In this document: piece after piece, positions 26,676 through 30,966 of the stretch
Layout of the letters: each line of letters starts with the position of its first letter
Position numbering within the stretch: position 1 is the stretch's first letter
From: a virus
Direction: 5' to 3' (one strand)
Virus record (IMG/VR): IMGVR_UViG_3300009026_000031
Coordinates: 1 to 34,441 of that record
DNA length: 34,441 nt
Program-made: the position numbers and the translations under genes
The notes under the pieces: generated by a model
The model's database searches: none
What the model saw: the letters and a program-made list of their open reading frames with translations, nothing else
What the model was told of the DNA's origin: nothing

Positions 26676-27125
26676 ATGGAAGTAAGGAACTGCAATACAC
26701 CCCTATATAGGATGTATAAGTTACAAGTAAGGTACGTTAAGATATTAGAGAAACTATTAGAAGATTCTGGTATATCTCTATCAGAAAGTAAGAAGGTTAA
26801 AGTAAAGCTAATAAGTGTAACGTCAAGCATTACACCCGAAAAGATAATAGAGTTAGTAGAGGACGAATTCAAGTCTAGTGTACTAACAAGAAATAGGAGG
26901 GTAGTTACCACTAATGCTCGTAAGGCTTCTGCATTTTTGTTATCTAATTATGCTAAAGCTCCATTGGTAGATATAGCCCCATTGATAGGGTTAACGCATC
27001 ATACATCTGTCATGCATAATATTAGAGAATGCGAGGATTTAATGGAAACTGATTACGTCTATAATGGTAAGATGCAAACTATCATAAAAGATATTAAAAC
27101 ATATATTAAAAACATAAAACATTAA
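26676..27125 (+). CDS. DnaA domain IV-like DNA-binding protein, 149 aa
   Basis: Residues about 55-125 match the C-terminal DNA-binding domain of DnaA: SSVLTRNRRVVTTNARKAS, then AFLLSNYAKAPLVDIAPLIG, then LTHHTSVMHNIREC. The last segment corresponds to the DnaA signature '..G.rdHTTV.hA..ki' that contacts DnaA boxes. There is no AAA+ ATPase domain (149 aa against about 450 for DnaA). It could bind origin sequences, compete with host DnaA, or regulate transcription. It sits among replication genes and is followed 2 nt later by the DUF1599-like gene. Confidence 0.7.
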   Translation: MEVRNCNTPLYRMYKLQVRYVKILEKLLEDSGISLSESKKVKVKLISVTSSITPEKIIELVEDEFKSSVLTRNRRVVTTNARKASAFLLSNYAKAPLVDIAPLIGLTHHTSVMHNIRECEDLMETDYVYNGKMQTIIKDIKTYIKNIKH

Positions 27126-27515: not shown

Positions 27516-27692
27516 ATGGAAACATATATACCAATGGAAGATGTTATTGTTATGATTAAATACTCAAAGCATATAACACCCGAAGAGAGGATAAAGTACG
27601 AAGAAAGAATTAAATGGATTTATTCTAGTGATTTAGCCAAAGAAAAACTAAAGAAACCAATTATTAAAAACCAACAAAGAAAAAAACTATGA
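27516..27692 (+). CDS. 58-aa charged protein, unknown
   Basis: A short helical protein (METYIPMEDVIVMIKYSKHI, then basic KEKLKKP and NQQRKKL). Its start is 1 nt after the previous stop and its stop overlaps the methyltransferase ATG (ATGA), so it may couple translation of the methyltransferase. Confidence 0.55.
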   Translation: METYIPMEDVIVMIKYSKHITPEERIKYEERIKWIYSSDLAKEKLKKPIIKNQQRKKL

Positions 27693-28642
27693 CACATGGA
27701 TCGCTTTTCAGCGGAATAGGTGGATTCGATTTAGCATCCCATTGGATGGGGTGGGACAATAAGTTCCATTGCGAATGGAATCCATTTGGACAAAAAGTAC
27801 TTAAACATCATTTCCCAAAATCAATATCATACAATGACATCACAAAAACAAACTTTTCTATTCACGAAGGAAGTATTGACATCCTTACAGGGGGATTCCC
27901 TTGTCAACCATACTCAACAGCAGGAAAACGACTCGGGAAAGCCGATGAAAGACATCTCTTTCCTCAAATGCTACGAGCAATTAAGGAGATTAAACCGAGA
28001 TACATCGTTGGCGAGAATGTTCGTGGACTTGTTAGTTGGAACGGGGGGATGGTATTCAACGAGGTGTGCGATGACTTGGAAAGGGAAGGCTATGAAGTCC
28101 AACCGTTTCTTATTCCAGCTGCAAGTGTCAACGCCCCGCACCAAAGACAAAGAATCTGGTTTATTGCCTACTCCAATGGCATCGGAAGCGGACAAGGCGG
28201 GGATAGGGGACAAGCAGAACAGTTTGACAAGGATGGTAAAGAGGGGCTTATTACTCACCCCAACAACGAAAGAGGAGGTACAGGATTTAGTCAAGTTCAA
28301 GGCAAGAATGGAAAAATATCCGAATGGAACAACCATGCCGAATCTAGCAACACAAGTAATGCTTCAAACTCCACGAGCTTCGGACAAAAACATCCATTGG
28401 AAAACAGAGAATTGGAAGGGGGACGATTTAGGGAGTCAGATGAACGAAATTTTTGGGACTCGTTCCCATCTAAACCCCCTCTTTGTGGAGGAGATGATGG
28501 GATTCCCAGGGAATTGGACTCTATCTCCTTTCCTAAATGGAGAAACGAATCAATTAAAGCCTATGGAAATGCAGTAGTGCCTCAATTAGCCTTTGAGATT
28601 TTTAAGATAGTAGCAAAATTTGAAGAAAAATTAAAAAAATAA
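27689..28642 (+). CDS. DNA (cytosine-5) methyltransferase
   Basis: The 317-aa protein shows C5-methyltransferase motifs in order: I SLFSGIGGFDLA (5-16, AdoMet binding), IV GGFPCQPYSTAG (68-79, catalytic Cys72), VI GENVRG (108-113), VIII HQRQRIWF (151-158) and IX/X RNESIKAYGNAVVPQLA (about 287-303). The region between VIII and X, where the target recognition domain lies, is short and of low complexity (Gly/Asn/Ser-rich, e.g. ESSNTSNASNSTSFG). This entire stretch also encodes a second protein in the +1 frame. Base composition is clearly more GC-rich than that of neighbours, suggesting acquisition or dual coding constraint. The likely role is protection from restriction or regulation. Specificity cannot be predicted. 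Confidence 0.92.
   Translation: MTHGSLFSGIGGFDLASHWMGWDNKFHCEWNPFGQKVLKHHFPKSISYNDITKTNFSIHEGSIDILTGGFPCQPYSTAGKRLGKADERHLFPQMLRAIKEIKPRYIVGENVRGLVSWNGGMVFNEVCDDLEREGYEVQPFLIPAASVNAPHQRQRIWFIAYSNGIGSGQGGDRGQAEQFDKDGKEGLITHPNNERGGTGFSQVQGKNGKISEWNNHAESSNTSNASNSTSFGQKHPLENRELEGGRFRESDERNFWDSFPSKPPLCGGDDGIPRELDSISFPKWRNESIKAYGNAVVPQLAFEIFKIVAKFEEKLKK
27786..28577 (+). CDS. Embedded +1-frame protein within the methyltransferase gene
   Basis: A 263-codon frame, open from TTG 27786 (first ATG at 27834), lies wholly inside the methyltransferase gene in the +1 frame. Its product has a patterned sequence: SLARMFVDLLVGTGGWYSTR (74-93) and CAMTWKGKAMKSNRFLFQLQ (94-113), repeated 'LLPTP', 'LLLTPT' and 'MLQTPRASD' units (126, 155, 193), and an end LNPLFVEEMMGFPGNW (229-244) then TLSPF. 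I know this LNP.FVE.MMGFP..WT ending and the LLPTP repeats from hypothetical phage proteins encoded at or near methyltransferase genes. Length, motif content and the low complexity of the methyltransferase frame opposite suggest it is real. Translation start is uncertain. Function unknown. Confidence 0.6.
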   Translation: MDKKYLNIISQNQYHTMTSQKQTFLFTKEVLTSLQGDSLVNHTQQQENDSGKPMKDISFLKCYEQLRRLNRDTSLARMFVDLLVGTGGWYSTRCAMTWKGKAMKSNRFLFQLQVSTPRTKDKESGLLPTPMASEADKAGIGDKQNSLTRMVKRGLLLTPTTKEEVQDLVKFKARMEKYPNGTTMPNLATQVMLQTPRASDKNIHWKTENWKGDDLGSQMNEIFGTRSHLNPLFVEEMMGFPGNWTLSPFLNGETNQLKPMEMQ

Positions 28643-29409: not shown

Positions 29410-29982
29410 ATGAAAGCAATTTTAAAAGCTTTATCTGGATTCCAAATGGAATGCCCAGCGATTAAGAAGGGAGCGGATAATCCTTTCTTTAAATCAAAGT
29501 ATGCATCTCTTGATGCCATACAACACGTAGCTAACCCAAAACTTTTAAAGCATGGGCTAGTAGCGATTCAGCCTACTACATGGATAGATGGGCAATGTTT
29601 CGTCAGAACAATAGTATATCATGTGGATAGCGGTGAGTCTATTGAATCTTTATTCCCGGTAATAACGCAAAAAAATACAGCACAAGAGTATGGTAGCGCT
29701 GTAAGTTATGCTAAAAGGTATAGCTATACAGGGTTATTAAATATTATCGTGGATGATGGGAGTGATGACGATGGTAATGTAGCATCAGGAAATCAGGCAA
29801 CTATCACCAGTACAAAAACTCCTTCTAGTACTTTAGTATGGTTAGATGAAAAGCACGCTAAATGGAATGAAGTTGTAGATAAATTTAAAAATAATACAGT
29901 AGATGTTGCTACACTTAAAAAGTATTTTAAGTTATCCAAGGCTATAGAATTAAAATTAACATCATTAAAAAACCCTGCCTAA
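29410..29982 (+). CDS. erf: ERF-family single-strand annealing protein
   Basis: The sequence ALSGFQMECPAIKKGADNPF, then KSKYASLDAIQHVANPKLLK and AQEYGSAVSYAKRYSYTGLL with NIIVDDGSDDDGN match the core of the ERF superfamily (N-terminal '...k.g.Np.fkskYa.l..i' and 'G.a.tYarRY.l..llgi...dDdgn'). The protein ends with a short basic tail. ERF proteins anneal complementary single strands in phage recombination. A RecE-like exonuclease follows two genes later, making a RecE/RecT-type pair. The leader contains ACCAATAAAA. Confidence 0.92.
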   Translation: MKAILKALSGFQMECPAIKKGADNPFFKSKYASLDAIQHVANPKLLKHGLVAIQPTTWIDGQCFVRTIVYHVDSGESIESLFPVITQKNTAQEYGSAVSYAKRYSYTGLLNIIVDDGSDDDGNVASGNQATITSTKTPSSTLVWLDEKHAKWNEVVDKFKNNTVDVATLKKYFKLSKAIELKLTSLKNPA

Positions 29983-29983
29983 T

Positions 29984-30217
29984 ATGGAATATATATTAAA
30001 CAAAGAGAAAGAAGACTATAGGATTAATAGTATTAAATCATCTATAGATGTCCTATCTAATATTAGTCTTCCCAATGATATATCATTAGTTAAAATAGAA
30101 ATAGATGATATATTAAATAGCTTAATAAGAGCTATAGAAGGAGGCAATGAATTAACTATAGGTATCGTTATGGGTCAGGCTCTAGAAAAACTTAAAATTA
30201 TAAATAATAAATTATGA
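29984..30217 (+). CDS. Helical 77-aa protein in the recombination operon
   Basis: An acidic helical protein (KEKEDYRINSIKSSIDVLSN, then IEIDDILNSLIRAIEGGNEL). It lies 1 nt after ERF and overlaps the exonuclease by ATGA, so it is co-translated with both and may bridge or regulate them. No family is recognised. Confidence 0.6.
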   Translation: MEYILNKEKEDYRINSIKSSIDVLSNISLPNDISLVKIEIDDILNSLIRAIEGGNELTIGIVMGQALEKLKIINNKL

Positions 30218-30966
30218 TAACATTAGATAAATTAAAAGAAAGGCCATTGAGCTACAGCTCTCTAAAAGAGTTTTCCAAGTCGCCTGCGCATTATGTAGCC
30301 TACTTAAATAAAAAAGTAGAACCTACAAAAGAAATGCTATTTGGAAGTTTGGTTCATTGTATGCTGTTGACTCCTTCTATAGTTCTTAATAAATTCGCAG
30401 TAATGCCTAATATAGATAGAAGAACTACTATTGGAAAGCAAGCGTATGAAGATTTTACTAAACAATCAGAAGGGAAAGATGTAGTCACAGAACAAGATTA
30501 CGATGACGCTAATAATCTAATTAATAAGGTTATATCAAACCAAGCTATTGCAGAAGCTATACAAAATTGTGATTCATTTGAGAAGGAGTGGAGGTATGAA
30601 ATAAATGGATTACCTGTGCGTGGATTTTATGATGGGGTTGCAATCGACTATATATTAGAGGTTAAAACAACATCAGATGCTGAACCAAGAGCAATTACAG
30701 CTGACTTCTTTAAAAGGCAGTATCATATGCAAGCAGGCATGTATAATTATGTTTCTGGTAAGCCAATAAAATATATTATAATTGAAACAAAGTCCCCATA
30801 TAATTGCTACCTAGCAGATGCTGATGATGATTTTGTTAGTTTCGGTAAGATGAAAATAATAGAGTCTATTGATAAATTTAAGGAGTGTCTTGATATAGGC
30901 TTGTTTGATATGGGCTATGAATTCTACGGACATCTGAAAATAGGATTACCTGGATGGGTAAAATAG
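30214..30966 (+). CDS. PDDEXK exonuclease (RecE/exodeoxyribonuclease VIII-like)
   Basis: The start YSSLKEFSKSPAHYVAYLNK, then MLFGSLVHCMLLTP, is typical of exodeoxyribonuclease VIII PDDEXK-like nucleases. The active-site block is visible: GFYDGVAIDYILEVKTT (metal-binding Asp, then ExK at about 145-151) and FFKRQYHMQAGMYNYVSG (the conserved Q...QaamY helix). At 250 aa it is the compact phage form. It would resect DNA ends for the ERF protein. It overlaps the 77-aa gene by ATGA. Confidence 0.88.
   Translation: MITLDKLKERPLSYSSLKEFSKSPAHYVAYLNKKVEPTKEMLFGSLVHCMLLTPSIVLNKFAVMPNIDRRTTIGKQAYEDFTKQSEGKDVVTEQDYDDANNLINKVISNQAIAEAIQNCDSFEKEWRYEINGLPVRGFYDGVAIDYILEVKTTSDAEPRAITADFFKRQYHMQAGMYNYVSGKPIKYIIIETKSPYNCYLADADDDFVSFGKMKIIESIDKFKECLDIGLFDMGYEFYGHLKIGLPGWVK

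Follow-up and report, generated by a model that had tools for sequence, protein, structure and literature searches.

The C5 cytosine methyltransferase gene of a phage record (IMG/VR IMGVR_UViG_3300009026_000031, analysed over its whole length of 34,441 nucleotides, hereafter the window) appears to encode a split enzyme in which the specificity half, designated beta, is overprinted in the +1 frame on the catalytic half, alpha. Taking sequence comparisons and structural models together, we put the probability of this reading, in which both chains would assemble and beta would pick the target, at about 0.88. In the proposed mechanism, frame 0 would provide a large domain that binds SAM and carries out catalysis (motifs I-VIII), a disordered linker and motif X, and the +1 frame an N-terminal arm, one to five recognition cassettes of approximately 39 amino acids and motif IX. 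The two proteins would form a single active methyltransferase that selects its DNA target through the cassettes of beta and, in the phage, the resulting methylation may guard the phage's own DNA against host restriction.

Alpha is encoded by an open reading frame of 317 amino acids at 27689..28642 on the plus strand, on which all features of alpha and beta described here are located, and matches the C5 cytosine methyltransferase profiles Pfam PF00145 (1.3e-45, residues 2-228), TIGR00675 (4.9e-42) and phrog_363 (6.3e-70). Motifs I (SLFSGIGGFD, 27701..27730), IV with the catalytic cysteine in PCQ (GGFPCQPYS, 27890..27916), VI with ENV (VGENVRG, 28007..28027), VIII (PHQRQRIWF, 28136..28162) and X (KAYGNAVVPQ, 28556..28585) are all present in this frame. 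The AF2 model of alpha is confident at residues 1-165 and in the helices of motif X. A low-complexity linker, residues 168-278 (28190..28522), is predicted to be disordered, with a pLDDT below 50 over most of its length, and occupies the place expected for the recognition domain and motif IX. The model matches M.HaeIII and M.HhaI across approximately 165 residues only, and therefore the small domain is missing from the modelled alpha. A recognition domain and motif IX were not found in this chain, and an IX-like sequence is present in the +1 frame only. As modelled, alpha is without a predicted recognition domain and the large chain has no folded room for one.

Among the neighbouring genes, a small protein encoded 5′ of the methyltransferase (26676-27125) has a match to the DnaA C-terminal, origin-binding domain (PF08299, 7e-07) that falls just under the Pfam cut-off, and an ERF-type single-strand annealing protein and a PDDEXK (DUF3799) protein, likely to be a recombination pair, are encoded 3′ of it (29410-29982 and 30214-30966). 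Scanning the window for Rfam families and for tRNAs gave no matches.

Inside the alpha gene, the +1 frame is open from stop to stop for 280 codons (27735-28574). The original prediction, made from the sequence of the window, reported two open frames over 27786-28577 and a raised GC content at the gene. Both observations were confirmed, with every motif that had been named being present and a GC content of 43-45% across the gene compared with 33% in the window and flanks. The inner gene had been started at TTG 27786, which is a possible start codon. We prefer ATG 27834, which fits the family better, because a +1-frame ATG is found around or before motif IV in 217 of 217 distinct homologous loci, most commonly 20-25 codons before it; a Shine-Dalgarno-like sequence precedes the beta ATG in 7% of loci only. 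From this start, beta comprises 247 amino acids (27834..28577), has homologues in the same frame and belongs to PHROG 1008 (profile match 3.3e-20). Its N-terminal arm (SLARMF .. WYSTRC .. TWKGK .. FLFQL, 28005..28121) is overprinted on alpha motifs VI-VIII and contains W, S and C residues that are invariant or near-invariant in our aligned set of homologues. The arm is followed by an array of three LPTP cassettes (28158..28466) that start at 28158, 28248 and 28359, and then by a motif IX-like sequence, HLNPLFVEEMMGFPGNWT (28467..28520), which is near-invariant in the same alignment and is located between motifs VIII and X in single-chain relatives; motif IX itself is carried as LNPLFVEEMMGFPGNWT.

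A +1 frame of this length is not expected from the coding requirements of the methyltransferase. In 20,000 trials with the synonymous codons of the alpha gene reshuffled, the longest +1 frame averaged 103 codons, and a frame of at least 280 codons had a probability of 0.0001. The +1 frame of the 217 homologous loci has a mean length of 262 codons, compared with 103 in this null, and the mean for the +2 frame is 44.

Selection on the two frames was examined by counting divergence at each codon position in 54 disjoint pairs of relatives with 72-95% identical DNA. Divergence at frame-0 positions 1, 2 and 3 was.087,.058 and.342 before the overlap,.110,.060 and.213 over its catalytic part,.303,.155 and.163 between motif VIII and the +1 stop, and.202,.137 and.386 after that stop. 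In frame 0, the fastest position is therefore position 3 as far as motif VIII and position 1, equivalent to position 3 of the +1 frame, from there to the +1 stop, after which position 3 is again the fastest; in the window, dominance passes to the +1 frame just 3′ of motif VIII. This flip was observed in 53 of the 54 disjoint pairs. When the counts were binned, frame-0 position 3 reached a minimum of.12-.16 at codons 110-140, beneath the conserved WYSTRC..TWK of beta, and returned to.38 within the first ten codons past the +1 stop. The synonymous constraint that was to be expected in the overlap if the original prediction held is thus clear and is accompanied by a reversal of the free codon position. 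We conclude that the +1 frame represents a genuine overlapping gene of ancient origin.

A search of viral contigs with the +1 protein identified 517 relatives, of which the best 80 were retained, and all of these best 80 of 517 are nested at +1 within a methyltransferase. Since this set had been selected on the +1 frame, a second search of viral loci was run with the frame-0 protein alignment as query, and a +1 homologue was found in the same frame at 80 of 80 loci. A +1 profile search of bacterial genomes also gave nested +1 genes in 80 of 80 loci, the hosts being mainly Bacteroidota but also Bacillota, Pseudomonadota, Acidobacteriota, Chloroflexota, Parcubacteria and others. The profile is uncommon in sampled whole genomes, with matches in 4 of 296 genomes belonging to the same phylum as a Flavobacterium and in 12 of 369 belonging to the same class as a gammaproteobacterium. 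The overlap had been proposed to be widespread in phages, and the loci found through frame 0 bear this out; it also occurs in bacteria and is hence not restricted to phages. Homologues of similar divergence, checked for stops in the +1 frame, show no drift towards them. As traced through these homologues, the double coding has been retained in phages and in bacteria from many phyla.

Interruptions were seen at individual loci. A stop at L012:1902-1904 breaks the beta frame and leaves alpha intact, so that beta is either decaying or affected by an error in sequencing, and L037 and L166 each contain one stop in the frame-0 methyltransferase near motif IV with the +1 frame still open. A nested pair in a bacterial genome (L296 / L299, G008) has stops in the +1 frame and looks to be a decaying copy.

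The role of beta is suggested by relatives, found in some actinobacterial phages, in which the corresponding region forms part of a single chain. Gp6 of Mycobacterium phage McProf contains, in one frame, motifs I-VIII, four LPTP cassettes, LNPRFAEWMMGWP / SPQLNPRFAEWMMGWPLDW and then motif X. Using hhalign, beta was matched to the VIII-X region of single-chain relatives with a probability of 98.5 (E 3e-15) in a pairwise comparison that is partly driven by the LPTP repeats, whereas comparison with its own alpha gave no match (probability 0.5). In a canonical methyltransferase encoded in L212, motif IX reads RRLTEIECERLQGFPDNWT and aligns by eye with SHLNPLFVEEMMGFPGNWT. Given the single-chain VIII-X match, the lack of a match to alpha and the resemblance to motif IX of the canonical enzyme, we consider beta to be composed of the arm, the cassettes and motif IX. 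These comparisons identify beta as a homologue of the recognition/IX portion of the phage enzymes made as one chain, and beta most likely represents the recognition domain plus motif IX, with frame 0 providing a disordered linker at this location. The proposal that the +1 frame encodes a partner or specificity factor of the methyltransferase is supported, and neither of the two outcomes named in advance as refuting it, drift to stops in homologues and a lack of synonymous constraint, was seen. The accompanying idea, that the second protein constrains the recognition domain of the first, stands with respect to constraint on the overlap but not with respect to the domain, because beta itself is likely to be that domain and alpha is predicted to be disordered there.

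An AF2 model of beta alone is of low confidence (pLDDT 60, pTM 0.27), which would fit a subunit that folds on its partner. No sequence match to solved structures was obtained with the beta (+1) profile, the single-chain C-terminal profile gave only chance matches to gelsolin among solved structures, none of them credible, and a Pfam scan of 111 beta members gave no credible match. A match of beta to AbiEi_4 (E 0.05) was dismissed as chance. One annotation points to a relationship with the BsuMI subunits YdiO/YdiP.

To define cassettes, the beta sequences were split at LPTP-like starts. This gave 506 cassettes with a median length of 39 amino acids, numbering one to five per beta and falling into 259 clusters. 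The same cassette is found at differing positions and with differing neighbours, and some cassettes are confined to the last position, adjoining motif IX. This shuffling looks like recombination of recognition units, and each cassette may read a target, by analogy with the multispecific enzymes of B. subtilis phages.

Other gene layouts are present in the family. In the actinophage loci L260-L270 and L273, alpha and beta are located side by side: alpha ends shortly past motif VIII and beta, which begins approximately 190 nt upstream of the alpha end in the +1 frame, contains cassettes, motif IX and its own motif X. In L260, the open frames of alpha and beta overlap by 389 nt. A single-chain methyltransferase on a 180-kb viral contig (L271:1495-3483) has an unusually long cassette array, with more cassettes than McProf gp6. 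The methyltransferase of Mycobacterium phage AlpineSix (L248) is found in two open pieces (1159-1687 and 1394-2075) with an apparent frameshift, and the nested +1 gene is still open across its second half.

Phylogenetic analysis of motifs I-VIII separates all three layouts (nested, side-by-side and single-chain) from eight canonical enzymes (100/99), on a root that rests on few, long-branched canonical rows, and the single-chain and side-by-side forms group together (99/95) inside the nested ones. Because of this placement, the nested arrangement looks ancestral in the family, with the single chain a later fusion. A broader scenario, to which we give slightly less than even odds, is that each cassette of approximately 39 amino acids would be an independent recognition unit, making the enzyme multispecific and allowing it to evolve by gain, loss and swapping of cassettes within the overlapping frame, where frame 0 would serve merely as a stop-free linker; nesting would be ancestral in a clade that spans many phyla and the single-chain enzymes would be later fusions.

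Alternative explanations differ in how the +1 frame is read and in what its product does. It could be an untranslated by-product of base composition or of the conservation of the methyltransferase protein, and a short, weak match of the canonical methyltransferase L285 to the N-terminal part of the +1 profile indicates that some of the similarity in this part of the +1 protein can arise as a shadow of the frame that encodes the methyltransferase. However, the canonical C5 methyltransferases L283, L284, L286, L289-L292 and L294, taken from genomes of the kind sampled, have no +1 match, and at the sequence level this explanation is refuted by the shuffle nulls and by the exchange of the free codon position, seen in 53 of 54 pairs, leaving it a negligible probability. 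Alternatively, a single polypeptide might be made by two programmed frameshifts, from 0 to +1 after motif VIII and back to 0 before motif X. Dominance flips exactly at VIII and reverts at the +1 stop just before X, as such a product would require, and the joined order of I-VIII, recognition region with IX, and X is the order seen in single-chain relatives. Yet a frameshifted protein needs no ATG-started open +1 frame upstream, across motifs I-VIII, and this was observed in 120 of 120 loci when only 0.4 of 120 would be expected given the frame-0 protein. Nor does it need a stop-free frame 0 in the linker, where 5.3 stops per locus are expected given the +1 protein and none was observed in 216 loci, which had been picked for an uninterrupted frame-0 ORF, few being set aside on that ground. 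Since frame 0 avoids stops in the linker too, both frames appear to be translated. Selection on both frames of the overlap is therefore indicated by the shuffles, the codon positions and the stop nulls alike, and on this evidence both frames are under protein-coding selection and appear to be read over their full length. A doubly frameshifted protein is disfavoured by this and by the actinophage relatives, in which beta is a partly separate ORF with its own motif X. We give the double frameshift a slim chance.

Slimmer still is the chance that beta is a real protein with another role, for example as an inhibitor, a stability partner or an anti-restriction factor. The low confidence of the lone beta model is compatible with such a role, and the function of the family is deduced from sequence. 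Against this, single-chain relatives have the corresponding region in frame, flanked by VIII and X, alpha has no folded small domain there, and the precedents M.EcoHK31I and M.AquI function as two-part enzymes. We therefore favour a split methyltransferase with an overprinted specificity subunit. If this is correct, half of the enzyme is absent from many annotations, because gene callers usually retain one of two long overlapping frames, and its sequence specificity would not be understandable from the annotated half alone. The pair would also be an unusually clear natural example of dual coding, in which selection changes frame at a known structural boundary and each frame is testable independently because silent changes in one show in the other. 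Should the cassettes prove to be interchangeable recognition units, the family would offer a ready-made collection of split methyltransferases whose specificity is modular.

The overlap had been called little noticed, which agrees with the papers searched, where we found no description of a nested methyltransferase gene or overlap in phages, but less so with annotation. In Paenibacillus larvae phages the inner ORF is annotated in some cases: gp56 of phage Shelly is the same nested +1 gene, recorded as 'g55 internal gene', and PHROG 1008 contains the beta family. Such annotations give either no role or the label 'DNA methyltransferase'. The portion of a P. larvae phage comparison available to us lists two adjacent methyltransferase entries and does not discuss an overlap (PMC6070908).

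Two-polypeptide C5 methyltransferases are represented by M.AquI and M.EcoHK31I; in the latter, motif IX alone is located on the small polypeptide and motifs I-VIII and X on the large one, and the predicted recognition domain was placed in alpha rather than beta (PMC3404938). The nested pair can be likened by description to M.EcoHK31I, a heterodimeric enzyme acting at YGGCCR, as motif positions and hhalign assign I-VIII and X to the large chain and IX to the small chain. Lee, Kam and Shaw reportedly found in 1995 that M.EcoHK31I beta is encoded by an ORF lying inside the alpha gene in a different frame. Unlike M.EcoHK31I, beta here also comprises a conserved arm and cassettes, of which there are one to five, the phage gene has no visible restriction partner and alpha lacks the folded room for a recognition domain. 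No EcoHK31I-like gene was found in E. coli genomes by a distant DNA search with the gammaproteobacterial relative L302, and a plasmid search with a gammaproteobacterial beta gave no enterobacterial match. M.AquI, a natural split enzyme, has the distal variable region, IX and X on its small subunit (PMC3404938). The nested pair likewise has a two-part split that leaves IX and the distal variable region to the smaller chain, but it differs from M.AquI in that beta is wholly nested and alpha holds X; the actinophage relatives with adjacent genes are closer to the M.AquI layout.

McProf gp6 shares the catalytic family, the LPTP cassettes and the LNP.F.EWMMG.P motif with the nested pair, but all in one frame. 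The multispecific C5 methyltransferases of B. subtilis phages SPbeta, phi3T and rho11s are said, in work by Trautner from 1996, to contain tandem small recognition domains. These are similar in size to the 39-amino acid median of the cassettes. The likeness, again by description, lies in a tandem array in the variable region, here of shuffled cassettes; unlike those enzymes, which have the array in the catalytic chain and frame, the nested pair has it in an overlapping gene. Trautner 1996 is among the works cited in PMC12707154. What is new here relative to the M.EcoHK31I precedent is the breadth of the family, the cassette arrays and the switch of coding dominance between frames.
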